From NCBI GenBank assembly GCA_947448305.1, contig CANFME010000004.1:1-54174 (forward strand): a stretch of 54,174 nucleotides of DNA, read 5' to 3'. Position 1 is the first letter of the stretch. Each line of letters begins with the position of its first letter. The translations under genes were made by a program, and so were the position numbers. Below are positions 20,529 through 36,610 of this stretch, one piece after another. Below the pieces are notes generated by a model that saw nothing but the letters and a program-made list of their open reading frames with translations, was not told where the DNA came from and did no database searches. The stretch comes from Burkholderiaceae bacterium (GTDB lineage: Bacteria > Pseudomonadota > Gammaproteobacteria > Burkholderiales > Burkholderiaceae).

Positions 20529-21578
20529 ATGACATCATTTCGATTAAATCCATTCGTGCCCAAAAAACCTGTTTTAATTCACTCCCAACAGAGAATGATT
20601 TCAAAAGTCTTTACTTTGGGCGTATTTTTAACACTCAGTCTAGCTACTCTGCCTCATCAAGAGGCCTTGGCCCAATCTAACTATCCAGAAAAACCGATTA
20701 GAGTCATCATTGGTTTTGCCGCTGGTGGACCAACCGATGTGATTGCAAGAGTTCTTGCGCAAGACATGACGACGACCCTCGGGCAATCGGTGATTGTAGA
20801 TAATAAGCCAGGTGCGAATGCCAAAATTGCAACCGAATATGTTGCACAGGCTCAGCCAGATGGCTATACATTACTCTTTGCGTCCTTGTCGCACAATGTC
20901 AACTCGATCATGATGAAAAAGCCGGGATATGATCCCATTACTAGTTTTGAGCCGATTTCTCTCGTAGCTGATCTACCAATGATTCTTGTGACAGGCTATA
21001 ACTCACCTTATAAAACATTAGGAGAGTTTTTAAAGGTTGCTAAAGACAAACCTGGCACGATTAGTTATAGCTCATCAGGCAACGCTGGTTCTTCCCATTT
21101 GGCTGGCGCCCTACTTTCTACCGATGCTAAAGTTGAATTAACCCACGTACCATTTAAAGGCAATGCTCCAGCTTTAACTGAAGTCATGTCTGGGAATGTT
21201 AATTTCATTTTCTATCCGATTATCGGGATTGCCGATCAAGTCGGACAAAAGCGTTTAATCCCATTAGCCGTTGGAACGACTAAACGTCACCCCGACTTTC
21301 CTAATACACCAACCATGGAAGAGTTAGGTTTCAAAGGTTTTGAGGCGACCGCCCCTTGGGTTGGGATGTTAGCGCCAGCAGGTACTTCTGCACCAATCGT
21401 GCAAAAAATCTATAACGCTATGCAAATTGCGATGGCCAAGCCTGAAATCAAAAAACGTCTAAATGATTTAGGCGCCATTACGATTGGTAATAGTCCAAGT
21501 GAATTTAAAGCTTTCTTAGTCAAAGATAAAATTCATTGGAAACGCGTTATTGATGCTTCAGGCCTTAAGCCAGAATAA
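20529..21578 (+). CDS. Bug/TctC-family periplasmic receptor (1)
   Basis: This is a tripartite-tricarboxylate-type periplasmic solute receptor (Bug), typical of Burkholderiales. It has a basic leader and hydrophobic core ending in a signal-peptidase site near EALAQSNYPEKPIRV. The family core then follows: GFAAGGPTDVIARVLAQ, VDNKPGANAKIATEYVA, QPDGYTLLFA and ISYSSSGNAGSSHLAGA. The ORF start gives a 45-residue leader, so a later ATG (residue 23) is possible. No TctA or TctB permease gene is nearby, so it is an orphan receptor. The ligand is unknown. Confidence 0.88.
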   Translation: MTSFRLNPFVPKKPVLIHSQQRMISKVFTLGVFLTLSLATLPHQEALAQSNYPEKPIRVIIGFAAGGPTDVIARVLAQDMTTTLGQSVIVDNKPGANAKIATEYVAQAQPDGYTLLFASLSHNVNSIMMKKPGYDPITSFEPISLVADLPMILVTGYNSPYKTLGEFLKVAKDKPGTISYSSSGNAGSSHLAGALLSTDAKVELTHVPFKGNAPALTEVMSGNVNFIFYPIIGIADQVGQKRLIPLAVGTTKRHPDFPNTPTMEELGFKGFEATAPWVGMLAPAGTSAPIVQKIYNAMQIAMAKPEIKKRLNDLGAITIGNSPSEFKAFLVKDKIHWKRVIDASGLKPE

Positions 21579-21598
21579 ACTGCAAATCACAAAGAATA

Positions 21599-21645
21599 TC
21601 AGCGCTACCCAATACCCTAATTTTCGGGTTTCGGGTGAGCGCTGA
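21599..21645. terminator. bidirectional terminator-like hairpin
   Basis: TCAGCGCT (21599-21606) pairs with AGCGCTGA (21638-21645), with ACCC/GGGT pairs extending the stem inward past a bulge. The structure lies in the 86-base gap between the convergent Bug receptor and hydrolase genes, which suits a shared transcription terminator. No strong T-run is present. Confidence 0.55.
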
Positions 21646-21664
21646 AATTCGTACTTGCTATTTT

Positions 21665-22444
21665 TTAGCTGAGCTTGTAAAAACTACTCAAGTGTTGATT
21701 AAAGGTCGCAGTTTGTTCCACATTCGAAATGTGGGAAGCTTGATCAATAATGTGCAAAACAGATTGTGGGATTTGAGCATGAATCTTTCTAGCCATCTCT
21801 GGAGGAGTACCGTGATCATCACTTCCGACCATAATCAAGACTGGGCACTTTAATTCTGGTAAACGATCAAAGGTATCGATTCTGGAAATGGCTTCGCAAC
21901 AACCCGCAAAACCCTCAACTGGCGTATTTAACACTCCCTGAGCAGTCGCTTGATAGGCAGCAGAGTTAGCAATCCGAAACGGCTCAGTAAACCATCTTTG
22001 CATCGTGCTTTCGAGAACGCCTTGCATCCCTTCATTTCTAGCTGTGATGATGCGGTCACCCCACATCTTTAAAGCATTATCAGGTCTACGACTGGTGGTA
22101 TCAGCTAGGACCAACGATGCGCAAATTTCTGGGTACTTTAGCGCTAAAGTTTGGCCAATCATACCGCCCATCGATAAACCCATCCAATGGGTCTTGGTAA
22201 TACCGAGTTCACCAAATAACTCATAAACATCATCAGCTAATTGTTCCATTGTGTAGGGACCCTGTGGCACGACACTTTTACCGTGTCCACGGGTGTCAAA
22301 TCGCAAGACCTTAAAATGCTTTGTTAACAGAGCCATTTGTGGATCCCACATGTGGATATCACAAGCGAGTGAATGGGACAAAGTCATCCAAGGACCTTCG
22401 CCCTCGATTTCATAGTAAATACCGTTTTTTGCTGTTCCTTGCAT
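21665..22444 (-). CDS. alpha/beta hydrolase, 3-oxoadipate enol-lactonase-like
   Basis: The 259-residue alpha/beta hydrolase resembles PcaD-type enol-lactonases. The oxyanion-hole region is TLSHSLACDIHMWDPQ, followed by FDTRGHGKSVVP. The nucleophile elbow is MGLSMGGMIGQTLAL, the acid lies near VGSDDHGTPPEMA, and the histidine in ASHISNVEQ. PcaD converts 3-oxoadipate enol-lactone to 3-oxoadipate in protocatechuate degradation. No other pca genes are in the window, so the substrate is uncertain. It lies 33 bases after the second Bug receptor and is probably co-transcribed with it. Confidence 0.8.
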   Translation of the reverse strand: MQGTAKNGIYYEIEGEGPWMTLSHSLACDIHMWDPQMALLTKHFKVLRFDTRGHGKSVVPQGPYTMEQLADDVYELFGELGITKTHWMGLSMGGMIGQTLALKYPEICASLVLADTTSRRPDNALKMWGDRIITARNEGMQGVLESTMQRWFTEPFRIANSAAYQATAQGVLNTPVEGFAGCCEAISRIDTFDRLPELKCPVLIMVGSDDHGTPPEMARKIHAQIPQSVLHIIDQASHISNVEQTATFNQHLSSFYKLS

Positions 22445-22477
22445 TTTTTTCTCCTGTTTAGTGATTACTTTTATTAT

Positions 22478-23452
22478 TTATTCGGCGATGATTTTTGCAG
22501 CTTTTGCAATGGCTGAAAAATCTTTGATTTCATTTTGTACAAAAATATCAAATTGGGCTGGGGTATCAGAGGCCGGCTCAATCCCAATGGAAGCATAGCG
22601 TTCTTTTAATTCCGGCAATTCATTAATCCGCTTCACTTCGAGTGCAATTTGTTGGAGTATTTCTTTAGGAGTGCCGGCGGGCGCTAACAAGCCATACCAA
22701 AATTGCCATTGATAACCAGGAACTGTTTCAGCAATAGTTGGCATATCTGCCATATCCTTGCTGCGCTTTAAAGAGGTGATGGCAATCGCTTTTGCTCTGC
22801 CGTCTTTAACCATGGCAATCGCACTGGCATAAGGGCTTATAAAGAAATCAACTCGCCCAGAGATCACTTCTGTCAAACCTTCAGGAATGCCTTTAGTAGG
22901 AATATGCAATAACTCAAGACCGGCTTTGGCGCGAAGGATTTCTGCCGCGAAATGAGAGCCACTGCCAATTCCTGCTGAGCTATAAGTCATTTGACCAGGG
23001 TTTTTCTTAGCCATCGCAATCAACTCAGCCACCGAAGTTACTTTTAACTTTGGTGAAATAATCAGAAGTGCTGGACCTGTCGCCGTCAAAGTAATGCCAT
23101 CAAAATCTTTCATTGCATCAAATGGCAATTTCGGATAGATGGCAGGAGAAATCGAAAAAGCGTTAGAAACAGACAATAAGGTATAGCCATCGGGTTTGGA
23201 GTTCGCCACGAATTGAGATGCAATATTCGCACCTGCTCCGACCTTATTTTCGATTACAACGCTTTGGTTCCATTTTTCAGAGAATTTTTGACCAAGAACT
23301 CTAGCGGTAATATCTGGTCCACCTCCAGGTGAAAAACCGACCACGATTTTGATTGGTTTATTCGGATAGGCCTGTGCACTCGCTTCAAATTGAAAAACGG
23401 TACCAAGGGCAATAATGCCTGTTATAACTAGCATTTTTAAAGGATGATTCAA
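22478..23452 (-). CDS. Bug/TctC-family periplasmic receptor (2)
   Basis: This 324-residue periplasmic receptor has a clear signal peptide (MLVITGIIALGTVFQFEASA, then QAYPNKPIKIVVG). The Bug core is intact: GFSPGGGPDITARVLGQ, IENKVGAGANIASQFVA, KPDGYTLLSVS and MTYSSAGIGSGSHFAAE. It is the first gene of a two-gene unit with the enol-lactonase-like hydrolase downstream. The pairing suggests uptake or sensing of an aromatic or dicarboxylic acid feeding that hydrolase. This is inference. It is only moderately similar by eye to the other two Bug proteins. Confidence 0.88.
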   Translation of the reverse strand: MNHPLKMLVITGIIALGTVFQFEASAQAYPNKPIKIVVGFSPGGGPDITARVLGQKFSEKWNQSVVIENKVGAGANIASQFVANSKPDGYTLLSVSNAFSISPAIYPKLPFDAMKDFDGITLTATGPALLIISPKLKVTSVAELIAMAKKNPGQMTYSSAGIGSGSHFAAEILRAKAGLELLHIPTKGIPEGLTEVISGRVDFFISPYASAIAMVKDGRAKAIAITSLKRSKDMADMPTIAETVPGYQWQFWYGLLAPAGTPKEILQQIALEVKRINELPELKERYASIGIEPASDTPAQFDIFVQNEIKDFSAIAKAAKIIAE

Positions 23453-23550
23453 GATGATGCTCCTAATGATTTTGTATTAGATAGTATTGTATCTTCAACA
23501 AATTAATGGAGACCGGAATACGTGATTATTTTCGAAACGACTTTAGAAAA

Positions 23551-24030
23551 TCACAAAACTAAAAAGAGATGATGGTCATCGTGATTAAACGGAATAAATC
23601 CATATTGGATATAAAAATCGCGGGCATTTTCGTTTTTTGCATCCACAATCAGGGCATAGGCACCTACGGATTTCTGAACATCCTGACAACGAAGTAATGC
23701 TTTTCCAATGAGTAATTCACCGATTCCCTGTCCCTTAAAGTCAAGACTTCTTGCTAATCGACCTAATCGAATACAAGGTATAGGATATCTAGGCAGTTTC
23801 TTTTTTTGACCCTCAGAAAAATTCTGGTGGTCGATTTGGGCAGTACTCAAAGAATAAAACCCTACAATTTCAGATGGATTTAACGGATCGACCAGAACAA
23901 AAGTTTTAGTGATGTTTCTTTTCTCTAACTGACCAGCCTCCTTTTGCAGAAACTGAACTAATAAAGGTTCCTCGCAACGAAAAGAGTTTCGGTCGTGGAC
24001 TTTTGAATCTAGTGCTTGATCTTCAAACAA
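23551..24030 (-). CDS. tacT: GNAT acetyltransferase toxin, TacT-like
   Basis: The 159-residue GNAT protein has the acetyl-CoA loop region in IRLGRLARSLDFKGQGIGELLIGKAL and the C-terminal ENARDFYIQYGFIPF. In the TacA/TacT family the toxin acetylates the amino group of charged elongator tRNAs and stops translation until bound by the antitoxin. The DUF1778 antitoxin gene lies directly upstream and overlaps it by eight bases, the classic arrangement. The N-terminal leader LLVQFLQKEAGQLEKRNITK matches the usual start. No frameshift or lost core motif was seen. Toxicity is predicted, not shown. Confidence 0.85.
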   Translation of the reverse strand: MFEDQALDSKVHDRNSFRCEEPLLVQFLQKEAGQLEKRNITKTFVLVDPLNPSEIVGFYSLSTAQIDHQNFSEGQKKKLPRYPIPCIRLGRLARSLDFKGQGIGELLIGKALLRCQDVQKSVGAYALIVDAKNENARDFYIQYGFIPFNHDDHHLFLVL

Positions 24031-24292
24031 TCTCTAAATTCCCTGCCTTTTCCATTGCTCTTTTTAATGCTTCATTGGGCTGAAACCCTCCGCTCAAAGC
24101 ATTTGCAAATTTGGTAAAGTCCTTTTCGTTGAGGGAGATTCGTGTTTCTTTATCAATGATCTGAAGTGCTTTTTCCTTTGCTGCACTTCTCACGAAGTTA
24201 GCCATTGAAGTGCCAGCCAATTCTGCCGCAAGGTTGATCGCGTATTTATCGGATGTATTCAGGACCATTTCAAAGCGTTGATTGTTTTTCAT
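24023..24292 (-). CDS. tacA: DUF1778 ribbon-helix-helix antitoxin, TacA-like
   Basis: The 89-residue protein has an N-terminal ribbon-helix-helix (RFEMVLNTSDKYAINLAAEL, then AGTSMANFVRSAAKEKA). The C-terminal toxin-binding segment is TRISLNEKDFTKFANALSGG and QPNEALKRAMEKA, close to the DUF1778 signature. It neutralises the GNAT toxin and would repress its own operon. The toxin start overlaps its end by eight bases. Two TACGGTA direct repeats and a TATAAT lie just upstream, fitting autoregulation by an RHH protein. Confidence 0.87.
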   Translation of the reverse strand: MKNNQRFEMVLNTSDKYAINLAAELAGTSMANFVRSAAKEKALQIIDKETRISLNEKDFTKFANALSGGFQPNEALKRAMEKAGNLEIV

Positions 24293-24314
24293 CGTGCTTT
24301 TCCAGTTAAGTAAT

Positions 24315-24332
24315 TACCGTAATTATACCGTA
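24315..24332 (-). promoter_or_regulatory. tacAT promoter with overlapping direct-repeat operator
   Basis: Two copies of TACCGTA (TACGGTA on the minus strand) start at 24315 and 24326, 11 bases apart, and flank a perfect minus-strand TATAAT at 24327-24322. They lie 23-40 bases before the antitoxin ATG. Spacing of one helical turn and overlap with the -10 element suit an RHH antitoxin operator. The -35 is poor (TAGGAT-like). Confidence 0.55.
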
Positions 24333-24492
24333 TCTATTCTAAAAATCCTAAGGATTATTTTGGGGTTGATAAGCTTAATTGAAAAAATTAAATGGGAATG
24401 ATATTAGACGGAAACATGCAAGAATTAGAGACACGCCAAATTATTAATCCCCTATCATTTATAATCACCATTCTGACTTAAAGGATCCGCCC

Positions 24493-25515
24493 ATGAAAAA
24501 CTCAACTTCCCTATCAAGGTTTAGCCAGCAATTTAATCGTTTTATTAGAAAAGGCTTTTTACCTGTGATTGCTTTGAGTTTAACTGCTCTAAGTGCGAAC
24601 TCGCTCGTTCATGCCCAAGCCTACCCAAGCAAAACCATCACGATTGTGGTCCCCACTGCACCAGGTGGCGCAAATGATGCAATGGCCCGAATTATTGGCC
24701 AAGGGCTCAGTAGCAGACTAGGGCAACCCGTCATTGTCGATAATAAAGCAGGCGCTAATGGTGCCATTGCTAGTGAATTTGTAGCGCGTGCTAATCCGGA
24801 TGGTTACACCCTCATGTTTGGTTATATTGCGACTCACGGTATCAACCCTGTATTGCAAAAGTTGCGTTACGATCCAATTAAAAACTTTGAGCCAATCACG
24901 ATGGTTGCAACATCTCCGACCTTAGTTGTAGTAAATCCGAGTGTAAATGTCAATTCTGCCAAAGAGTTAGTGGCACTACTTAAATCACAACCGGGTAAAT
25001 TAAGCTACGCATCAGCTGGTAAAGGGACAGCCCCGCATTTATCGGGCGAGCTTTTTAAATTAAGCACTGGCACTGACATGCTACATGTTCCGTATAAAGG
25101 ATCATCCCCAGCGATCGTTGATACGATGGCTGGAGTTACTCAGGTCATGTTTCCCAGCTTATTTTCTGCCTATACACAGGTTAAGGGTGGCAAGCTCAAG
25201 GCTTTAGGGATAGCGGGTAAAAAAAGATCACCCGTCTTGCCCAATGTGCCGACTTTAAACGAGCAAGGTATTCAGCATGTTGAAGTAGATCAGTGGTATG
25301 CCATGTTTGCTCCTGCTGGAACACCTAAAGCAATTATTACTGAGCTCAATAAGGTATTAGTAGAATTACTGCACGACAAAACGGTTGAGAAGAAAATCGA
25401 AGAGCAAGGTGCTGATGTAGAAACGACAACACCCGAAGAATTATCTGCCTTTGTGAAAAAGGAAGGGATTCGCTGGAAAAAAGTCGTGGATGACGCAAAA
25501 ATTACTGTGGACTAA
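24493..25515 (+). CDS. Bug/TctC-family periplasmic receptor (3)
   Basis: This 340-residue periplasmic receptor has an N-terminal signal (FLPVIALSLTALSANSLVHA, then QAYPSKTITIVVP) and the Bug core: PTAPGGANDAMARIIGQ, VDNKAGANGAIASEFVA, NPDGYTLMFG and LSYASAGKGTAPHLSGE. It has its own upstream gap of 190 bases shared with the divergent tacAT promoter. No permease genes are near. Its stop overlaps the stop of the convergent GFA-fold gene by four bases. Confidence 0.88.
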   Translation: MKNSTSLSRFSQQFNRFIRKGFLPVIALSLTALSANSLVHAQAYPSKTITIVVPTAPGGANDAMARIIGQGLSSRLGQPVIVDNKAGANGAIASEFVARANPDGYTLMFGYIATHGINPVLQKLRYDPIKNFEPITMVATSPTLVVVNPSVNVNSAKELVALLKSQPGKLSYASAGKGTAPHLSGELFKLSTGTDMLHVPYKGSSPAIVDTMAGVTQVMFPSLFSAYTQVKGGKLKALGIAGKKRSPVLPNVPTLNEQGIQHVEVDQWYAMFAPAGTPKAIITELNKVLVELLHDKTVEKKIEEQGADVETTTPEELSAFVKKEGIRWKKVVDDAKITVD

Positions 25516-26871: not shown

Positions 26872-29478
26872 TTACCTCTGAATTTTGTAGGCGCTATTTT
26901 TGATATGCGTGAAATAGCGTCCCGTAATTTCATCAGAAATCGCCCATGCTTGACGAATACAATCTTTCACGCAATCCAGTAATTCCTCAAAAGCCACCTC
27001 TTTTACTTGTGGCACTAAATGCACTAAAACATCGACATGACTATGTTCAACCCGTGTTTCAGAGTTGGTTAATTTCGCTAATCGATTTCTTAATTTACGG
27101 GTAATCCAAGCGATTGAACGCGGATTTTCAGTATTAAAAACAAGTAATTCCAATAATTCGTTTAAATCTCTACTTTGCTGATGTTGAGCCTGAAAGGTAA
27201 TGGTGCTATCAAACAATCCTAAAAGAGTATTAAATCCAGAAGTATCATTGAATGGATTAGCCAAAACACCCTCTTCGATTGCACCTTCCAAAATACTAGA
27301 GAAAAACTGTAAACGCTCAATCAAACGTCCAATATTCATCAAAGTCCAACCTGCATCCCTAGTCATTCGATCGTTTTGCGCTCCGGTAATAGCGGATAAA
27401 AATTGATTAGTAGTTGATAAGCCTTGCAAGGCTAAGGTAATTGAATAATCATTACCTACCTTCATTAATTTATTGTCTTTTTCAAAGCGCTCGACACAAC
27501 GATTGATCATCGACCACAAGTCGGTCGAAAGTGATTCGCGAATTTTTGAGGCGGAGGCTTGTAAAGCCCTTAGGTTAGAGCCGACGCTCATTAAGGTCGT
27601 CGAGTTCAAATGCGACAACAGCATTCGTTCATCGCGCTGCTCCGTCTCGGCAGTAGCTGTTTGCCCACCGGCGAGGGGGAATGGCATCAGACCATTGATT
27701 TGACATAATTTATCTAACCAATTCCATAGCAAGTCAGATTGAGAGTTTTCACTATTTAAACTCTCTAGATACATGGTGGCTAAGACTGCGGTATTTTCAC
27801 TTCGTTCTGTGTATCTGCCAAACCAAAATAAATTTTCAGCAGATCGACTCGTAATCACCCTATCTCGATGGGCTTTACCTACCGAAGTCGCTTTGCTTGG
27901 AAATAAAATGGGCAGCTGTGTATAGCTCTGTCCTTGTACCCAAACATCGGTACTACTACCCCCTCTTTGCATCGAGGCAACGCCGTCTGGATTGGCAGCA
28001 ATCCTAGCTAAACCGCCAGGTAAAATCTGCCAAGAGTTACCAAGACCATCACTCATTGCAAAAACACGCAACATATAAGACCGCGGTTCAATACACTTTT
28101 CTAAATCAGGATTACTATCTGCTTGCCAAGTCGGTATTTGGGCTAGTGGCAAATAGGATTGAATCGTAAAATCATCAGGGGATTTTTTAATCTTCTCGAG
28201 AAGTTTAGAGACCTCTTTAGGGTTTAAGTTCTTGACTAAAAAGGAATCAAAATGTTGATGACCATCCAAAGAGGGATAAGTTGATTTGACAACACTATTA
28301 ACAAGGTTTTCTTGAGCAGCTTCAAAAGCAGCATCTTCGCCACACCACCAAGTATCCAGTGCCGGTAATAGCAATGGTTGGCCCAGTAACCGCTCACTAA
28401 TACTTGGCAAAAATGCCAGTAAGCCAGGTGACTCCAAAAATCCACTGCCTGGTGCATTAGCGATCACCACATTGCCAGCACGAATGACCTGCATCAGTCC
28501 TGGCACGCCTAAGGTCGAGTCTTCTTTTAACTCCAAGGGGTCTAAAAACGTATCATCCAGGCGTTTAATGATCACATGGACTGGTTCTAAACCATGAATG
28601 GTTCGCAGATAGGCACATTGATTGCGCACTGTCAGATCATTGCCTTCAACTAGGGTTAAACCTAAATACCTAGCAAGATAGGCATGTTCAAAATAGGTTT
28701 CGTTATAAGGTCCCGGTGTAAGTAAAACGATATGCGCATTTTGACCTGCCTTACTTTCCCTTTTTAATGACTGTACTAAACCACGGTAAACTCTCGTCAA
28801 GGACTCAATGCGCATTTGCTCATACGCTTTCGGAAACTGCTTGGAAACCAAGTTACGATTTTCCAACAAATAACCAAGGCCTGAAGGAGCTTGAGTACGT
28901 TGTGATAGAACGGACCAATTACCATTCGGACCACGGGCCAAGTCAAAGGCCATGATGTGTAAGTGTTTCTTATCTTTCGGAATCGCCTGATGCATGGATC
29001 GTAAATAACCGGGATGGCCATTCACCAAAGCTGGCGGAATTAAGCCTTCTTTAATTAAGGCACCCTCACCATAAACGTCTTGCATCATTGCTTCGAGCAA
29101 TTTTGCGCGTTGCAAAATCCCTGCTTGAATCACTAGCCATTCTTCATGAGGAATAATTAAGGGAAATAAATCAATGGTCCACGGTCTTGTGGGACCGTTT
29201 TCATCCACATAAATATTGTAGGTAATTCCATTATCTCGAACTTGTCGCTCGATTTCATTAGTACGAGCATTAAAGTCACTCAGTCCTTTGGGCTGTAAAT
29301 AGCTAAAGAAATCACGCCAATAGGGACGCATCGAGGACGCTCCAGACTGTTCGGAAGTGTACAACTCATCATAATGGGTTGTATCCGCTTTCGATACAGC
29401 TTCATACTGCTGGGTACTCGACTGCTGTTGAGTCGTTGGTTCTGTAAAGAAACTCGATTGGCTTTGAGATTGGGACAT
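26872..29478 (-). CDS. circularly permuted ATP-grasp / alpha-E domain fusion
   Basis: The 868-residue protein combines a circularly permuted ATP-grasp type 2 domain (roughly residues 50-530, with RPYWRDFFSYLQPKGLSDF, FDLARGPNGNWSVLSQRTQA and LTPGPYNETYFEHAYLARYLG) and an alpha-helical alpha-E domain (about 545-868, opening SRSAENLFWFGRYTERSENTA). In many bacteria these are separate neighbouring genes (DUF404/407 and DUF403). ATP-grasp enzymes ligate carboxylates to amines at the cost of ATP. Aravind and co-workers predicted that this set makes small peptides. The Gln/Ser-rich first 45 residues look disordered. It sits between the two transglutaminase genes. Confidence 0.9.
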   Translation of the reverse strand: MSQSQSQSSFFTEPTTQQQSSTQQYEAVSKADTTHYDELYTSEQSGASSMRPYWRDFFSYLQPKGLSDFNARTNEIERQVRDNGITYNIYVDENGPTRPWTIDLFPLIIPHEEWLVIQAGILQRAKLLEAMMQDVYGEGALIKEGLIPPALVNGHPGYLRSMHQAIPKDKKHLHIMAFDLARGPNGNWSVLSQRTQAPSGLGYLLENRNLVSKQFPKAYEQMRIESLTRVYRGLVQSLKRESKAGQNAHIVLLTPGPYNETYFEHAYLARYLGLTLVEGNDLTVRNQCAYLRTIHGLEPVHVIIKRLDDTFLDPLELKEDSTLGVPGLMQVIRAGNVVIANAPGSGFLESPGLLAFLPSISERLLGQPLLLPALDTWWCGEDAAFEAAQENLVNSVVKSTYPSLDGHQHFDSFLVKNLNPKEVSKLLEKIKKSPDDFTIQSYLPLAQIPTWQADSNPDLEKCIEPRSYMLRVFAMSDGLGNSWQILPGGLARIAANPDGVASMQRGGSSTDVWVQGQSYTQLPILFPSKATSVGKAHRDRVITSRSAENLFWFGRYTERSENTAVLATMYLESLNSENSQSDLLWNWLDKLCQINGLMPFPLAGGQTATAETEQRDERMLLSHLNSTTLMSVGSNLRALQASASKIRESLSTDLWSMINRCVERFEKDNKLMKVGNDYSITLALQGLSTTNQFLSAITGAQNDRMTRDAGWTLMNIGRLIERLQFFSSILEGAIEEGVLANPFNDTSGFNTLLGLFDSTITFQAQHQQSRDLNELLELLVFNTENPRSIAWITRKLRNRLAKLTNSETRVEHSHVDVLVHLVPQVKEVAFEELLDCVKDCIRQAWAISDEITGRYFTHIKNSAYKIQR

Positions 29479-29503
29479 GCCTTATTATCACCTAAGGTGA
29501 AAT

Positions 29504-32500
29504 CTAGCGACGCAAATCTAGCGTAAATGGAAACTCTTTACTACCTGCTAAGTCAATATTCGGCACAGTTTGTAATGAAACTCCAGGGGTATGCCCCATC
29601 ATAAAGAATCTAGACAAACGACGTGCCTCAGCTTCATAGGCATTGATTGGGAAGCCAGCATAATTCGTGCCACCCGGATGAATCACATGATACTGACAAC
29701 CCCCCACTGAACGTTTCGTCCATGTGTCAATTAAATCAAATGTTAAAGGTGACTGAATACCGATGCTAGGGTGCAAACTAGAAGGTGGATTCCACGCTTT
29801 GAAACGCACTCCGGCACTAAACTCACCAGCACGACCGGTTGACATGAGCGGTACAGCTTGACCATTACAAGTCACAACGTAGCGACTTTGATTCAAACCG
29901 CGCACTAAAATCTCAACACGCTCAAGAGATGAATCGACATAGCGTACGGTGCCACCATCTTCTTCACCCATCACATGCCATGGCTCGAGAGCGGTGCGTA
30001 GTTCCAACTCACAACCCATCGTACGAACTTGGCCAATTAATGGGAAGCGGAATTCAAAATGGGGTGCAAACCACTCTAAATCAAAATCAAAGCCAGCAGT
30101 TTTTAATTCTTGGATGACGTCGGCAAAATCTGCTTTTACAAATGACGATAACAAGCAACGATCATGTAACTCAGTTCCCCAACGGGTTGCTGGAGCAAGA
30201 TATGGCTCATCCCAGAAACGGGCGATTAAAGCTCTCAGTAATAGTTGTTGCACAATACTCATACGAGCATGGGGTGGCATTTCAAATGCACGAAGTTCTA
30301 ACAAACCTAAACGACCAGTAGAACTGTCTGGTGAGTAGAGTTTATCGATACAAAACTCACTACGGTGGGTATTGCCCGTGACATCAATCAAAATATTTCT
30401 CAGCGAGCGATCCACCAACCATGGTGGCATTTGTGTGCCATATTTTTTACGGTTAGCATAAATTTCTTTAATCGCGATTTCCAATTCGTAGAGTTGATCA
30501 TTTCTAGCTTCATCGACCCGTGGTGCTTGGCTCGTTGGGCCAATGAAAATGCCACTAAACAAATAAGAAAGACTTGGATGGTTGTGCCAAAATAAAATCA
30601 AGCTAGCTAAGAGTTCTGGCTTTCTCAAAAATGGACTGTCTGCTGGTGTTGCACCGCCCATCACAAAATGATTACCGCCACCAGTACCTGTGTGGCGTCC
30701 GTCCATCATGAATTTTTCAGCCGTCAAGCGTGATTCAAAAGCCGCTTGATATAAGAACTCGGTATTGTCTTTGAGTTCAGTCCAGTTATAAGCTGGGTGA
30801 ATATTCACCTCAATTACTCCTGGATCAGGCGTCACACTTAAGGTCTTGAGACGGAAGTCTTTCGGTGGTCCGTAGCCTTCGAGCACAATCTTATATTGCA
30901 GTTGATCTGCTGTTTTTTCTATCGCAACGAGTAATGTTAAATAATCCTCTAAGCGTGAAAGTGGTGGCATAAAGACATACATCACACCGTTCTTACCACC
31001 AAATTCAGCCACTGCATCCGGTCCATTAGCACGCATTGGGTCACGAACTTCTACACAGATGGCTGTGCGAGTTACCCAGTGCGCTGATTCTTGAAAGTCG
31101 GGTACCTTACGGATATCAGTCACCATCTTACTAGTCACTTTACCAACATTGCCGACTTTACCAGGACCTGTTTCGGCAGTCATATTAGACTGTTTGCCAC
31201 TGACCTCAAACTCTTTACGACGCGGATCCGTCTTGGTAGCACCAAATGTCACAGATTGCATACCTGATGGGAAATGTCCGTCATCTAACTGTTGTCGAAT
31301 TTGTGCATGCGAAGCAAGAGGAGCTTTAGGGGCAAAATGATCCTCTTCAATCAAATAAGGGTATTGCTCTTTAGAGACCCACGGCAAAGAATTTAACGGC
31401 AAGCGATAACCCATTGGCGAATCACCAGGTAACAAGTACATGCGATCATCTCTGATTAACCATGGGCCAGTTGACCAAGTCGTTTCAGAAAGAGTGTGAC
31501 TAGGCTTGGCACTAATCGGTAAAACATAACCAATTACTGCATCATTTTTTTGTTCAAAAACACGTTTTAAACGCTGACGCTCGAGCGGATCTTCTAAGTT
31601 TGACTCAAATGGATCGACATTTACAGGCAGCTTGGATTCACGCCACAAATAATAAAAGACATCCTCATAAGCCGGTCGAATGAACTCATCGGTAAGTCCA
31701 AGGTTCTTTGTCAGTGTATAAATAAATTTTTTAGAATCGGCGCTGGTGTAATGCAAGTCATCGCGTTCATCGGCAAACAGCTCAGGCTTACCCCAAACTT
31801 TTTCACCATCAGCGCGCCAATGAATTGACAAAGCCCAACGCGGTAACTGCTCACCGGGATACCACTTACCTTGACCAAAATGTAAGAAGCCACCTTTACC
31901 ATACTGCTCGTAAAGATGACCCACTAATTCGGTAGCAAAACCACGCTTAGTAGGTCCAAGTGCCTCGGTATTCCACTCTGGAGCATCTAGATTATCGATA
32001 CCCACATAGGTTGGCTCGCCGCCCATGGTTAAACGAACATCACCATCAACTAATTGTTGTTCGACATAATCGCCCAATTGATTAATTTTTTCCCACTGCT
32101 CTTCGGTATACGGTTTGGTAACGCGTGGAGATTCGTAAATACGCGTCACTTGCATGTGATGCGCGAACTCTACTTCAGATTTATCAACAGCACCCTCAAT
32201 CGGCGCCGCTCCACTTGGATCGGGCGTACAGGCCAGCGGCACGTGACCTTCACCAGCTAATAATCCTGAAGTTGGATCTAGACCAACCCAGCCAGCACCT
32301 GGTAAAAACACTTCACACCAAGCGTGTAAATCGGTAAAGTCTACATCGGTTCCGCTAGGACCATCGAGAGCCATTACGTCTGCTTTTAATTGGATTAAAT
32401 ACCCTGAAACAAAACGTGCAGCCAAGCCACAATGTCTTAATAGTTGCACCATTAACCAAGCAGAGTCACGGCAAGAACCACTGCAAAGTGTCAGCGTTTC

Positions 32501-33010
32501 TTCAGGTGTTTGAACTCCTGGCTCCATGCGGATGAGATACTTAATATCTTTTTGTAATTTCTGATTTAACTTCACCAAATAATCAATTGTCCTGACCTCA
32601 GTGCGGTCAACGCTAGCCAGATATTTCTTAAAATTTGGCGATAACTCGATGAGCTCTAAGTAAGGTAGTAGTTCTTTTTTTTCACTTGTTGTATAGGAAA
32701 AAGGATATTTCTCAGCATGCTTTTCTAAAAAGAAATCAAAAGGATTAAAAACAGCCATTTCAACCACGAGGTCTACCGTCACCTTAAAGATATTGGTTTT
32801 TTCGGGGAAGACCAGTCTTGCCTGATAGTTTGCAAAAGGATCTTGCTGCCAGTTGACGAAATGGGTTTTGGGTTCAATCTTGAGGGAGTAAGAAATAATC
32901 TTACTACGGGTATGGGGTGCAGGCCTTAAGCGAACAACTTGAGGTCCTAAGTTGATCATACGATCATATTTATATTCGGTAACGTGATTTAAAGCAATAT
33001 GGATTGACAT
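29504..33010 (-). CDS. transglutaminase - DUF2126 (amidoligase-like) fusion protein
   Basis: The 1168-residue protein has an N-terminal transglutaminase part (MSIHIALNHVTEYKYDRMI, Cys in CSGSCRDSAWLMVQLLRHCG, His in DLHAWCEVFLP, Asp in GLDPTSGLLAGEG) up to about residue 300. The remaining two thirds is DUF2126, starting near VRLTMGGEPTYVGIDNLD with FLHFGQGKWYPGEQLPRWAL. DUF2126 has been related to COOH-NH2 ligases of the glutamate-cysteine ligase class. It is the first gene of the minus-strand operon and is followed after 25 bases by the ATP-grasp/alpha-E gene. No Anbu proteasome-like gene, which often accompanies such sets, is in the window. Confidence 0.9.
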   Translation of the reverse strand: MSIHIALNHVTEYKYDRMINLGPQVVRLRPAPHTRSKIISYSLKIEPKTHFVNWQQDPFANYQARLVFPEKTNIFKVTVDLVVEMAVFNPFDFFLEKHAEKYPFSYTTSEKKELLPYLELIELSPNFKKYLASVDRTEVRTIDYLVKLNQKLQKDIKYLIRMEPGVQTPEETLTLCSGSCRDSAWLMVQLLRHCGLAARFVSGYLIQLKADVMALDGPSGTDVDFTDLHAWCEVFLPGAGWVGLDPTSGLLAGEGHVPLACTPDPSGAAPIEGAVDKSEVEFAHHMQVTRIYESPRVTKPYTEEQWEKINQLGDYVEQQLVDGDVRLTMGGEPTYVGIDNLDAPEWNTEALGPTKRGFATELVGHLYEQYGKGGFLHFGQGKWYPGEQLPRWALSIHWRADGEKVWGKPELFADERDDLHYTSADSKKFIYTLTKNLGLTDEFIRPAYEDVFYYLWRESKLPVNVDPFESNLEDPLERQRLKRVFEQKNDAVIGYVLPISAKPSHTLSETTWSTGPWLIRDDRMYLLPGDSPMGYRLPLNSLPWVSKEQYPYLIEEDHFAPKAPLASHAQIRQQLDDGHFPSGMQSVTFGATKTDPRRKEFEVSGKQSNMTAETGPGKVGNVGKVTSKMVTDIRKVPDFQESAHWVTRTAICVEVRDPMRANGPDAVAEFGGKNGVMYVFMPPLSRLEDYLTLLVAIEKTADQLQYKIVLEGYGPPKDFRLKTLSVTPDPGVIEVNIHPAYNWTELKDNTEFLYQAAFESRLTAEKFMMDGRHTGTGGGNHFVMGGATPADSPFLRKPELLASLILFWHNHPSLSYLFSGIFIGPTSQAPRVDEARNDQLYELEIAIKEIYANRKKYGTQMPPWLVDRSLRNILIDVTGNTHRSEFCIDKLYSPDSSTGRLGLLELRAFEMPPHARMSIVQQLLLRALIARFWDEPYLAPATRWGTELHDRCLLSSFVKADFADVIQELKTAGFDFDLEWFAPHFEFRFPLIGQVRTMGCELELRTALEPWHVMGEEDGGTVRYVDSSLERVEILVRGLNQSRYVVTCNGQAVPLMSTGRAGEFSAGVRFKAWNPPSSLHPSIGIQSPLTFDLIDTWTKRSVGGCQYHVIHPGGTNYAGFPINAYEAEARRLSRFFMMGHTPGVSLQTVPNIDLAGSKEFPFTLDLRR

Positions 33011-33232: not shown

Positions 33233-36133
33233 TTAGAAAGGAACATTATTGGAGCTAGAGCCACCAGAATTACCCGTAAAAGGATTTGATTGGTAACCAT
33301 GCGCTAAGTTATCGAATTTAGTAAACTCGCCCTGCCAAGACAGTTCAACGACACCAATCGGACCATTTCGTTGTTTACCAATGATGACCTCAGCAACACC
33401 AGGTCGATCCGTCTCTGGGTGATAAACGCTATCACGATAAATAAAAATAATGACGTCTGCATCCTGCTCAATCGCACCGGAATTATGGCAAACGATGCCA
33501 CCAGCCAACCAAGAGCCATGACTAGGTACAGTTAAATCAAAAACCTCTTCTTCACCAGCATCCTCAATAGTAAGAATTGGATCCCAGGATATGCCCAAAG
33601 AGATAGCCTGAGCTAGAGTTTGAACGGGTTGATTCGCAATTGCAACCTCGTCCCCGCTCGTTAAATCGGCAACAGTCTGCCAGCCTTTTTGGGTATAAAT
33701 ACGGTGATTTTTTGTTGCTGTAAGGGTCAAGCCACTTTGTGTCTGAATCCGTTGAACAGGCTTTACACCGACTGACCAAACACAATCACTCACTGCACTT
33801 TGCAATTGCTGTTGTTCATCCATCGCAATCACAGACGGGGTAGAGCCGACTAATTCTTTAATCGGTCTCAAAGTACCATCAGCAAGAACAACTTGGGTAT
33901 TGCCAGAGACGCACTCACGTAAATCGGACATGATTGGGCGCTTGTTTTCGCGGTTTTCTAAGCTACGATTTAACTGCGATAAGGCAATCACAGGACAGCC
34001 CATTTCTTTAGCAAGGGACTTTAAAGAGCGAGAGATTTCAGAGATTTCGGTTGTCCGGTTATCGCCTGAAGTACCACCTTTACCAGCCATCAATTGCAAA
34101 TAGTCAATCACAACTAAACCAACCTTACCGTACTTACGAGCCATCCTTCTAGCGCGAGCACGTAACTCAAGAGAACTCAAAGAACCCGTTTCATCGATGA
34201 GCATTGGCGCTTTATTAAGTAAGCCAATCGCATTAGTAAAACGGCTCCACTCTTCATCGTTTAAGTTACCGGTCTTTAATCGTCCTTGATTAACCCGACC
34301 GACTGAACCGAGCATTCTAGTCGCTAACTGAGAAGCGCCCATCTCCATCGAAAACACTAGAACTGGTAAGCCCTCTTTAATCGCCACATGCTCAGCGATA
34401 TTCATCGCAAACGACGTGTTATGGGTAACCACATAATCATCTGTGAGATAGGTTTTACTTGGATGACTAACCGAAATACATTGTGCCTGCGCTCTTCTTA
34501 CAGCTTGAATATTCGCAAAAGTAACAACCGGAGTATGGCCATCCACAGGTAAATCTATTTCTAAGCTATAGCCTAGGGATGAATTATCTTTAGCTTGATT
34601 TGTGAGCTCACAAGTACCGCCTAATGACCTCACTAGAGAAGTAATCTCTTTAGCAAATGACCCTGATAATACAGATAGTGATTGCTGTCTGGGCGAACCA
34701 GTTTGGTTACTTGCAAAGCCAGCTATGAGCCCCTGCAGGAGTGCCTGACGAACCGGCTTTTTCGCCAGTAAATAATTACTTGGAATACTAGGTATAAAAG
34801 AGTTCAGAGATAAACCAACTTGACTGAACGCTTCATTGATTGGACAAGGTGCAACGAACGATGCGCCATTGACGAGTAATTTACTTGGCAACACTCTGCG
34901 CCAGCGCAACTGACCTAAATTGGTTTTTACTATTGCGAAAGTAGTCGCGATTTCTTGGAATTCTTGGGCGAGCTCAGTTTGAAGTTTTTCTAAAAAGACC
35001 TCATTCAATTCTTTAAAAATAATTTCGCCCGCGTCCACTGTCTCGATACAACCCAGTAGTGCTCCTAGCAACCAAGGATCCATGGGTAAAGATTTCGTTG
35101 CTCCAAAATCACCCGTAATCGCATCAATTGATAACTGACTTGGCTGAATATCCTGCGCTAAAGAATTTGCAAGTTCAGCAGTAGACAAGACTTTTGCAGC
35201 AATCCAATCAGGATGAGAGACTCGCCACAAGTGCTCAGCGCAACATTGTGTAGCTCTACCATCTGAAAAAACCACTTCATAAATTTCTTTTAATCCTTGT
35301 GGAAAGATACCCGTCACAAAGGATGCTTGACCGTCGATAGAAGCCAGTGCATCACCGACCATCAAATCTTGCATTTGTTTCCAACCGCTCCATGTTTTAA
35401 TTTGAGCGTCCAGTGGTTGTGCTTTACCCATACTCGGACGACCCGCAACAATGATCAAATCGCCTTTTTGTAAACCACTGGTTTTTTTATCTAGATCAAT
35501 AAAGCCTGTCGCTACACCGGTAATTTCGTTCGAACCACCGCGCGCTTGGAGTTCTTGAATACGAACCACAGCTTCAGTCATTAACTCTTCCATCTCGAAG
35601 AATTCGCGGGTGCTACCACCGATTTCTCCAATGGCCAGGATTCTGGACTCTGCTTCATCGAGCAAGGTACGCACTGCTTTACCCTCAGGATCAAAGGCAG
35701 AGTTAGCAATACTATCCGCCGTCTGAATGAGCCGGCGCAAAATACTACGATCACGAATGATCTGGGCATAGCCTCGGACGTTCGCCGAGCTAGGCGTATT
35801 ACTACTGAGCTGATTTAAATAAGTGATCCCATAATTTTCGCCAAGACCTGTCGATTTAAGTTCTTCATGGACTGTCAGCACATCTGCTGGCTTGTTTTCA
35901 TTAACCAGTTTGCCAATTGAGCGAAAAATAACTGAGTGTTCAGTGCGATAAAAGTCGATTTCACCAAGAATTGGCGCGACCAAATCCCAACTGTTGTTAT
36001 CAAGTAACAAAGCACCGAGAACGGATTGCTCTGCTTCTACTGAATGAGGGGGGGTTTTTAGACCTTGTACAGCCCGATCCAACTCACCCGTGGGGGTTTG
36101 AGGTAGAAGGGGATCTGTACTTGGCATCTTCAA
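33233..36133 (-). CDS. dnaB: replicative DNA helicase DnaB with two inteins
   Basis: DnaB is the hexameric helicase that unwinds DNA at the replication fork. The 966-codon frame contains normal DnaB sequence in three parts: residues 1-237 (N-terminal domain and start of the RecA fold, to GRPSMGK), 573-740 (TSFAMNIAEH to MSDLRE) and 885-966 (SGAIEQDADVI to the C-terminus). Two inteins of 335 and 144 residues interrupt it. After splicing, the helicase would be 487 residues, close to usual DnaB length. The frame is open throughout and splice junction residues are intact. It is the last gene of the rpsF-priB-rpsR-rplI-dnaB operon. The first codon in the track is TTG. An ATG two codons later (36127) is an equally good start. 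Confidence 0.97.
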   Translation of the reverse strand: MKMPSTDPLLPQTPTGELDRAVQGLKTPPHSVEAEQSVLGALLLDNNSWDLVAPILGEIDFYRTEHSVIFRSIGKLVNENKPADVLTVHEELKSTGLGENYGITYLNQLSSNTPSSANVRGYAQIIRDRSILRRLIQTADSIANSAFDPEGKAVRTLLDEAESRILAIGEIGGSTREFFEMEELMTEAVVRIQELQARGGSNEITGVATGFIDLDKKTSGLQKGDLIIVAGRPSMGKAQPLDAQIKTWSGWKQMQDLMVGDALASIDGQASFVTGIFPQGLKEIYEVVFSDGRATQCCAEHLWRVSHPDWIAAKVLSTAELANSLAQDIQPSQLSIDAITGDFGATKSLPMDPWLLGALLGCIETVDAGEIIFKELNEVFLEKLQTELAQEFQEIATTFAIVKTNLGQLRWRRVLPSKLLVNGASFVAPCPINEAFSQVGLSLNSFIPSIPSNYLLAKKPVRQALLQGLIAGFASNQTGSPRQQSLSVLSGSFAKEITSLVRSLGGTCELTNQAKDNSSLGYSLEIDLPVDGHTPVVTFANIQAVRRAQAQCISVSHPSKTYLTDDYVVTHNTSFAMNIAEHVAIKEGLPVLVFSMEMGASQLATRMLGSVGRVNQGRLKTGNLNDEEWSRFTNAIGLLNKAPMLIDETGSLSSLELRARARRMARKYGKVGLVVIDYLQLMAGKGGTSGDNRTTEISEISRSLKSLAKEMGCPVIALSQLNRSLENRENKRPIMSDLRECVSGNTQVVLADGTLRPIKELVGSTPSVIAMDEQQQLQSAVSDCVWSVGVKPVQRIQTQSGLTLTATKNHRIYTQKGWQTVADLTSGDEVAIANQPVQTLAQAISLGISWDPILTIEDAGEEEVFDLTVPSHGSWLAGGIVCHNSGAIEQDADVIIFIYRDSVYHPETDRPGVAEVIIGKQRNGPIGVVELSWQGEFTKFDNLAHGYQSNPFTGNSGGSSSNNVPF
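33482..33913 (-). other. DnaB mini-intein 2 (Cys-1, class 1, no endonuclease)
   Basis: Residues 741-884 of the dnaB frame form a 144-residue mini-intein. Block A is CVSGNTQVVLADGTLRPIKEL with Cys-1. Block B is LTLTATKNHRIYTQKGW with the TxxH-type element. Blocks F and G are EVFDLTVPSHGSW and GGIVCHN, and the +1 residue is Ser. Residues 1-144 leave no room for a homing endonuclease. The exteins rejoin as DLRE/SGAIEQDAD, the conserved DnaB motif H4. All classical splicing residues are present, so splicing is expected. Confidence 0.95.
34418..35422 (-). other. DnaB intein 1 (Ala-1, class 3-like, with decayed LAGLIDADG region)
   Basis: Residues 238-572 of the dnaB frame form a 335-residue intein inside the Walker A motif: GRPSMGK/T. 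It begins with Ala (AQPLDAQIKTW), not Cys or Ser. It has Trp after the block-B His (CAEHLWRVSH), Cys in block F (AQCISVSHPSKTYLTDDYVV) and Thr before the final His-Asn (VTHN), followed by Thr+1. This Trp-Cys-Thr set is the class 3 signature described for inteins that start splicing from the block-F Cys. Between the splicing blocks lie two LAGLIDADG-like stretches (PWLLGALLGCIETV and ALLQGLIAGFASNQ) that lack the expected acidic residues, so endonuclease activity has probably been lost. Confidence 0.93.
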
Positions 36134-36157: not shown

Positions 36158-36610
36158 TTAAGCAGCTGCGCCAATAACCTTGACGTTGACTTCAACTACT
36201 ACATCAGTATGAAGTGCAATCGCTACTGGGTATTCACCAACCGCTTTTAATGGACCATTCGGAAGACGAACAGCACCTTTTTCGATTGTGAAACCTTTAC
36301 TGCTTAAAACTGCAGAAATGTCGTGGTTAGTTACTGAGCCGAAGAGACGACCATCAACACCAGCTTTTTGGCTGATTTCGATAACTTGACCGAGTAATTT
36401 CTCACCAACAGCTTGTGCCTGTGCGAGTTTTTCTGCAGCAATTTTTTCTAGTTCTGCACGACGAGCTTCAAAGTCAGCAATAGCTGATTCAGTAGCGCGA
36501 CGAGCCATACGTTGTGGAATTAAGAAGTTACGTGCAAAACCATCTTTAACACGAACTACATCACCTAGATTGCCTAAATTGGCTACTTTTTCAAGAAGAA
36601 TGACTTGCAT
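36158..36610 (-). CDS. rplI: 50S ribosomal protein L9
   Basis: This is ribosomal protein L9, which binds 23S rRNA near the L1 stalk. The 150-residue protein has the N-terminal L9 domain [19 protein letters not shown], then [15 protein letters not shown], a long connecting helix rich in Ala/Glu/Lys, and the C-terminal domain with [10 protein letters not shown]. It is 15 bases after rpsR and 25 bases before dnaB in the conserved operon. Confidence 0.98.

Follow-up and report, generated by a model that had tools for sequence, protein, structure and literature searches.

The DnaB of M. smegmatis carries two inteins, the class 3 intein DnaBi1 in the P-loop and the class 1 intein DnaBi2 in the H4 loop (PMC6195587). 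Class 3 inteins are defined by the absence of Cys, Ser or Thr at position 1, the presence of Trp B:12, Cys F:4 and Thr G:5, and Ser or Thr at position +1 (PMC5222942). In the class 3 pathway the block F cysteine attacks and two branched intermediates are formed; the class 1 pathway proceeds through a Cys1 thioester and one branched intermediate (PMC5222942; PMC6195587). A link between phage inteins and the class 3 DnaB inteins of mycobacteria has been described (PMC5050341).

We analyzed a window of 54,174 nucleotides, the whole stretch considered here, from a Polynucleobacter, a freshwater bacterium. Its DnaB, like that of M. smegmatis, has a class 3 intein in the P-loop (intein 1) and a class 1 intein in H4 (intein 2). 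The pairing is already known and is not new in kind; a sequence-only reading of this DNA had implied more novelty than is warranted, since M. smegmatis DnaB has the same class pair in the same two motifs (PMC6195587). The distribution of endonuclease domains is reversed between the two systems. In M. smegmatis the class 3 intein is a mini-intein and the class 1 intein has an endonuclease, while in the window the class 3 intein has a decayed endonuclease-sized domain and the class 1 intein is the mini-intein. Intein 1 is followed at +1 by Thr in the window, where the M. smegmatis intein has Ser, and the predicted use of the Walker A Thr as +1 nucleophile parallels that of the P-loop Ser in M. 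smegmatis.

The DnaB inteins of Ssp, Npu and phage PaV-LD are class 1 inteins in motif H4 and share their fold and class with intein 2. The PaV-LD intein is inserted at RESG^ (^, insertion point), two codons downstream of RE^SG in the window, and the intein in Thiomargarita and Parabeggiatoa DnaB is likewise located two codons downstream, at SDLRESG^. The DnaB sequences of Thiomargarita and Parabeggiatoa (L081, L086, L087, L095) have a class 1 intein (Cys1) at GK^T in addition to the second intein at RESG^, so that the GK^T site is occupied by class 1 inteins there and by class 3 inteins in Polynucleobacter. PI-SceI resembles intein 1 in combining a Hint domain with a LAGLIDADG endonuclease; intein 1 differs in having lost the acidic residue from both LAGLIDADG motifs and in being class 3, not class 1. 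What this case adds to the known pairing, judged from the sequence, is the reversed endonuclease load, the decay of the class 3 endonuclease, and the RE^SG site of intein 2 as against RESG^ in the PaV-LD and Thiomargarita relatives.

The dnaB frame and its two inteins

The minus-strand frame at 33233-36133 is open over 966 codons from a TTG and comprises 487 extein codons, 335 of intein 1 and 144 of intein 2, exactly the 487 DnaB and 479 intein codons counted previously. Translation more probably begins at an ATG two codons further in (36127), so that the precursor would have 964 aa and the product 485 aa. The frame scored 516 bits against the TIGR00665 equivalog (cut-off 385), and profile searches placed PF00772 and PF03796, the DnaB N and C domains, on both sides of the intein blocks, identifying the gene as that of the replicative helicase DnaB. 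The coordinates of all features are listed in Table 1.

Table 1. Coordinates in the window of dnaB, its exteins and inteins, and the motifs of intein 1
Feature	Position	Strand	Remarks
dnaB, replicative helicase precursor	33233..36133	-	TIGR00665 DnaB covers precursor 28-944
N-extein: DnaB N-terminal domain, linker and start of the ATPase domain, ending with GRPSMGK (Walker A)	35423..36133	-	
Intein 1, class 3, 335 aa, precursor aa 238-572, Walker A GK^T	34418..35422	-	class 3 signature; empty site in relatives
Intein 1 block B, HLWRVSH: His64, Trp66 (W of the WCT triplet)	35213..35233	-	aligned with M. smegmatis DnaBi1 block B
Decayed first LAGLIDADG motif, LLGALLGCIETVDAG; LGALLGDG in relatives	35027..35071	-	
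Decayed second LAGLIDADG motif, LLQGLIAGF; L(F)xGL(M/L)DTDGW in relatives	34715..34741	-	
Intein 1 blocks F and G: QCISVSH (Cys315), YVVTHN (Thr333, His334, Asn335), then Walker A Thr+1	34418..34483	-	
Middle extein, TSFAMNIAE ... SDLRE	33914..34417	-	
Intein 2, class 1 mini-intein, 144 aa, precursor aa 741-884, SDLRE^SGAIEQD in motif H4	33482..33913	-	
C-extein, SGAIEQDAD... up to the stop	33233..33481	-	

The borders, class signatures and empty sites, like the endonuclease decay and the constraint described below, are read directly from the sequence. The extein joins GRPSMGK-TSFAMNIAE and SDLRE-SGAIEQDAD are identical to the uninterrupted sequence of the intein-less DnaB of relatives, and once the exteins are joined, their codons align with the empty alleles at both sites with nothing inserted or lost. 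Exact removal of the blocks restores a conserved host protein and empty alleles exist, which identifies both blocks as inteins. The insertion points named in the sequence-only reading (GRPSMGK/T and DLRE/SGAIEQD, both blocks ending in His-Asn) were thus confirmed, and comparison with the dnaB of relatives showed that neither block is normal sequence in all homologues. That reading had also taken both sites to be ATPase-critical, which stands for the P-loop; the second site lies in the H4 loop, which is reported to bind DNA (PMC6195587).

Intein 1 splits the Walker A motif between Lys and Thr (GRPSMGK^T). It displayed the class 3 sequence features, namely Ala1, Trp66, Cys315, Thr333 and Thr+1, and A1, H64, W66, C315, T333, H334 and N335 were invariant in 18 aligned relatives. 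Its parts are an N-terminal splicing region (about aa 1-95), an endonuclease-like region (about 96-302) and a C-terminal splicing region (about 303-335). A sequence search matched it to the solved class 3 inteins DnaBi1 of M. smegmatis (6bs8, E 1.4e-7) and MchDnaB-1 (6rix). Cys315, which is predicted to be the initiating nucleophile, aligned with the catalytic Cys118 of 6bs8. The predicted structure had a modest mean pLDDT of 74, weakest at the C-terminal residues, with PI-SceI as the best fold match, and the family profile of intein 1 aligned with PI-SceI across the endonuclease.

Intein 2 has the class 1 residues Cys1, T67-K-N-H70 (TxxH), Asp126 in block F, His143-Asn144 and Ser+1, and C1, H70, D126, H143 and N144 were invariant in nine relatives. 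It contains no endonuclease domain. Its model had a pLDDT of 92, the best PDB matches being the Ssp and Npu DnaB inteins (TM 0.86-0.88); the closest solved structures were 4o1r, 6frg and 1mi8. The earlier assignment of the two inteins to different mechanistic classes therefore held, with the key positions of both invariant.

The intein profile search that had been proposed as a check succeeded for intein 2, which matched Intein_splicing PF14890 and TIGR01445 above the cut-off, and failed for intein 1, for which Pfam and NCBIfam searches gave no intein match although it matched 6bs8 and 6rix. This is a gap in the profile libraries and does not count against intein 1. A PF14890 search of the genome gave no further intein of that profile, a search that is not exhaustive because the profile misses class 3 inteins.

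The rplI gene (36158-36610) is located directly upstream of dnaB, with SSB-like and S6 genes further upstream. On the other side of dnaB, at 26872-33010, are genes for a transglutaminase and DUF2126 amidoligase fusion (1168 aa) and for an ATP-grasp and Alpha-E protein (868 aa). Three closely spaced genes for TctC-type tripartite tricarboxylate transporter receptors were found at 20529-25515.

Endonuclease decay in intein 1

Most class 3 P-loop relatives of intein 1 keep both LAGLIDADG motifs, and by a crude pattern test both were kept in 65 of 73 readable viral loci. The other Polynucleobacter relatives of intein 1 that were inspected have intact motifs, LGALLGDG and GL(M/L)DTDGW, while the clade of the window has lost both. 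In the window, P. rarus and P. kasalickyi the first motif reads LGALLG followed by C or S (GDG replaced by GCI, GSI or GSV), and in the second the DTDG is replaced (GLIAGFA, GLMASFA and GLIQGLS). With the acidic residue gone from both motifs, intein 1 does not have the features of an active LAGLIDADG homing endonuclease.

In the two-intein clade the endonuclease part had a dN roughly 10-fold that of the exteins, a selection test that comprised only three divergent lineages. Across the 213 pairs whose motifs are intact, this ratio had a median of 2.5 (5-95% range 1.6-6.1, maximum 8.0). The splicing part of intein 1 was not unusual, with a dN 3.5 times that of the exteins in the two-intein clade and 2.7 times in the intact-motif pairs. 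On the intein tree, the stem branch of the two-intein clade had a length of 1.21, compared with 0.19 for other Polynucleobacter. The loss of both motifs, the fast divergence of the endonuclease part and the long stem branch lead to the prediction that intein 1 splices but no longer homes. Its reading frame must nevertheless stay open, because the rest of dnaB lies downstream in the same frame. Since intein 1 has lost the acidic residues of its endonuclease and intein 2 has no endonuclease, neither is predicted to move any longer, and both would now be passed on vertically in the clade formed by P. rarus, P. kasalickyi and the window.

Splicing, constraint and retention

We infer the chemistry and the splicing in the cell from the residues described above. 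In intein 1, Cys315 of block F would attack the Lys-Ala junction directly, the acyl group would move to Thr+1, which is the Walker A Thr, and cyclization of Asn335 followed by an acyl shift would seal GK-T. In intein 2, Cys1 would form a thioester at the Glu-Cys junction, Ser+1 would take it over, and cyclization of Asn144 would leave E-S sealed. A normal helicase of 485-487 aa would be obtained only after both splicing events. That both inteins need to splice is a sound inference and not a result.

The dN/dS values between the window and P. rarus were 0.03 for the exteins, 0.10 for the splicing part of intein 1 and 0.12 for intein 2, and a single dnaB was detected in the genome assembly, which is 92.5% complete; an intein-free second copy might lie in the missing 7%. 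Purifying selection on both splicing domains, together with the single dnaB, makes it very likely that both inteins continue to splice. With high confidence we read the gene as a functional dnaB whose product would be matured by two autocatalytic splicings, of inteins that arrived separately and are both predicted to be immobile now.

It could be that the inteins are retained as a control on replication exerted through slow or conditional splicing, of the kind reported for DnaBi1 of M. smegmatis on oxidation and with zinc (PMC6195587; PMC7360933). Consistent with this, both inteins are predicted to be immobile yet are constrained across species, and block B of intein 1 contains an invariant Cys60-Cys61 that lies near the active-site His64 in the sequence. 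However, in the 6bs8 alignment Ile47 takes the place of the redox partner Cys48 of M. smegmatis, so that intein 1 lacks a redox switch of the DnaBi1 type; Cys60 and Cys61 could serve as alternative redox partners. Constraint would be expected in any case, because an unspliced essential protein should be lethal, and inertia would suffice for retention where imprecise loss is intolerable, as in the Walker A loop. Regulated splicing as the cause of retention therefore seems unlikely. It is somewhat less likely still that the P. rarus and P. kasalickyi clade keeps its immobile inteins as condition-responsive (redox or metal) gates acting as two serial checks on replication.

Alternatively, one or both inteins could be splice-dead, with dnaB a decaying pseudogene or the cell relying on another helicase. 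The endonuclease of intein 1 has indeed decayed and splicing is predicted here from sequence, but the splicing residues are all invariant, the splicing domains evolve at a dN/dS of about 0.1 beside exteins at 0.03, and no stop or frameshift was present in the two-intein dnaB of P. rarus, P. kasalickyi and two metagenome-assembled genomes (MAGs). Considering also that this is the only dnaB in the assembly, we regard a splice-dead intein as very improbable.

Distribution and separate origin of the inteins

Intein 1 had matches in 487 phage records, and many viral contigs carry the same kind of intein after the GK of various NTPases. The P-loop inteins of phage NTPases and Burkholderiaceae dnaB match intein 1 over its full length, with an AQPLDA-like start, insertion after GK, a THN end and usually Thr+1. 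At least two further genera of the Burkholderiaceae have a relative of intein 1 in dnaB (L254, L261, L262). Intein 1 would thus come from a pool of class 3 P-loop inteins common to Burkholderiaceae dnaB and phage NTPases. In the viral contigs L166-L245, AQPLDA-like class 3 inteins directly follow the GK of assorted NTPases, usually with Thr at +1, suggesting a family of inteins that targets P-loop codons in proteins unrelated to one another.

Matches to intein 2 occurred in 17 phage records, most of them weak, and a search of 300 genomes of the family gave a single weak match elsewhere. Intein 2 is related to gammaproteobacterial inteins that occupy the same H4 site of DnaB, and the RE^SG site is also used by the gammaproteobacterial genes L072-L074 and L085. 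Intein 2 would have been drawn from a pool of H4-site DnaB inteins and would have arrived separately from intein 1.

Relatives of intein 1 were detected in dnaB of about 58 of the 151 genus genomes and those of intein 2 in six, with both together in three sampled genomes; a seventh genome (G131) had a weak intein 2 match in a gene other than dnaB. The bulk of the intein 1 carriers lack intein 2. The differences in relatives, class and distribution across the genus support independent insertions, as the sequence-only reading had preferred over duplication. That one intein was copied within dnaB and the copies then diverged, which would suit two Hint-fold elements in the same protein, is hardly credible and was rejected, because the inteins differ in class, pairwise comparison gave only out-of-register matches (21 residues, and 46 columns in a further alignment), the nearest relatives differ, with the closest kin of each at its own site elsewhere, and other Polynucleobacter have each site occupied alone.

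Among named records, the nearest came from two isolates that carry both inteins, Polynucleobacter rarus (90% identity in the best segment) and P. kasalickyi (76%). A near-identical second MAG also carries the two-intein dnaB, and an assembly artefact or chance was rejected because the same gene occurs in these isolates and in the second MAG. Phylogenetic analysis of the exteins grouped the two-intein genomes in a single clade with a support of 100. The sister of this clade (L076-L080 and L083) has dnaB without either intein, and an adjoining clade (L069-L071) has intein 2 alone, with the intein 1 site empty.

The literature examined does not mention inteins in Polynucleobacter, and the pairing of class 3 and class 1 inteins in DnaB is now found in a second, distant bacterial group. 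Some Polynucleobacter genomes have no P-loop intein, others have one whose endonuclease motifs are intact and others one with a dead endonuclease; the H4 intein may be missing, may occur by itself or may accompany the P-loop intein. This range of states among closely related genomes makes the intein life cycle, from invasion through endonuclease loss to trapping in an essential site, testable outside mycobacteria.

Extein mismatches between intein-bearing and empty alleles (L027 against L155) increase towards the P-loop site. Such a gradient was rejected as evidence of homing by co-conversion, because intein-bearing pairs show the same gradient. The record L070 is titled Thermoflexus hugenholtzii JAD2 (Chloroflexota), and its dnaB exteins share 99% protein identity with the betaproteobacterial L069 and L071; it is probably a mislabelled or contaminated bin. 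Weak intein-like matches were found in other long open frames of relatives, at G131:C33:135720-136016, G009:C6:9499-9681 and G223:C45:121540-121950.
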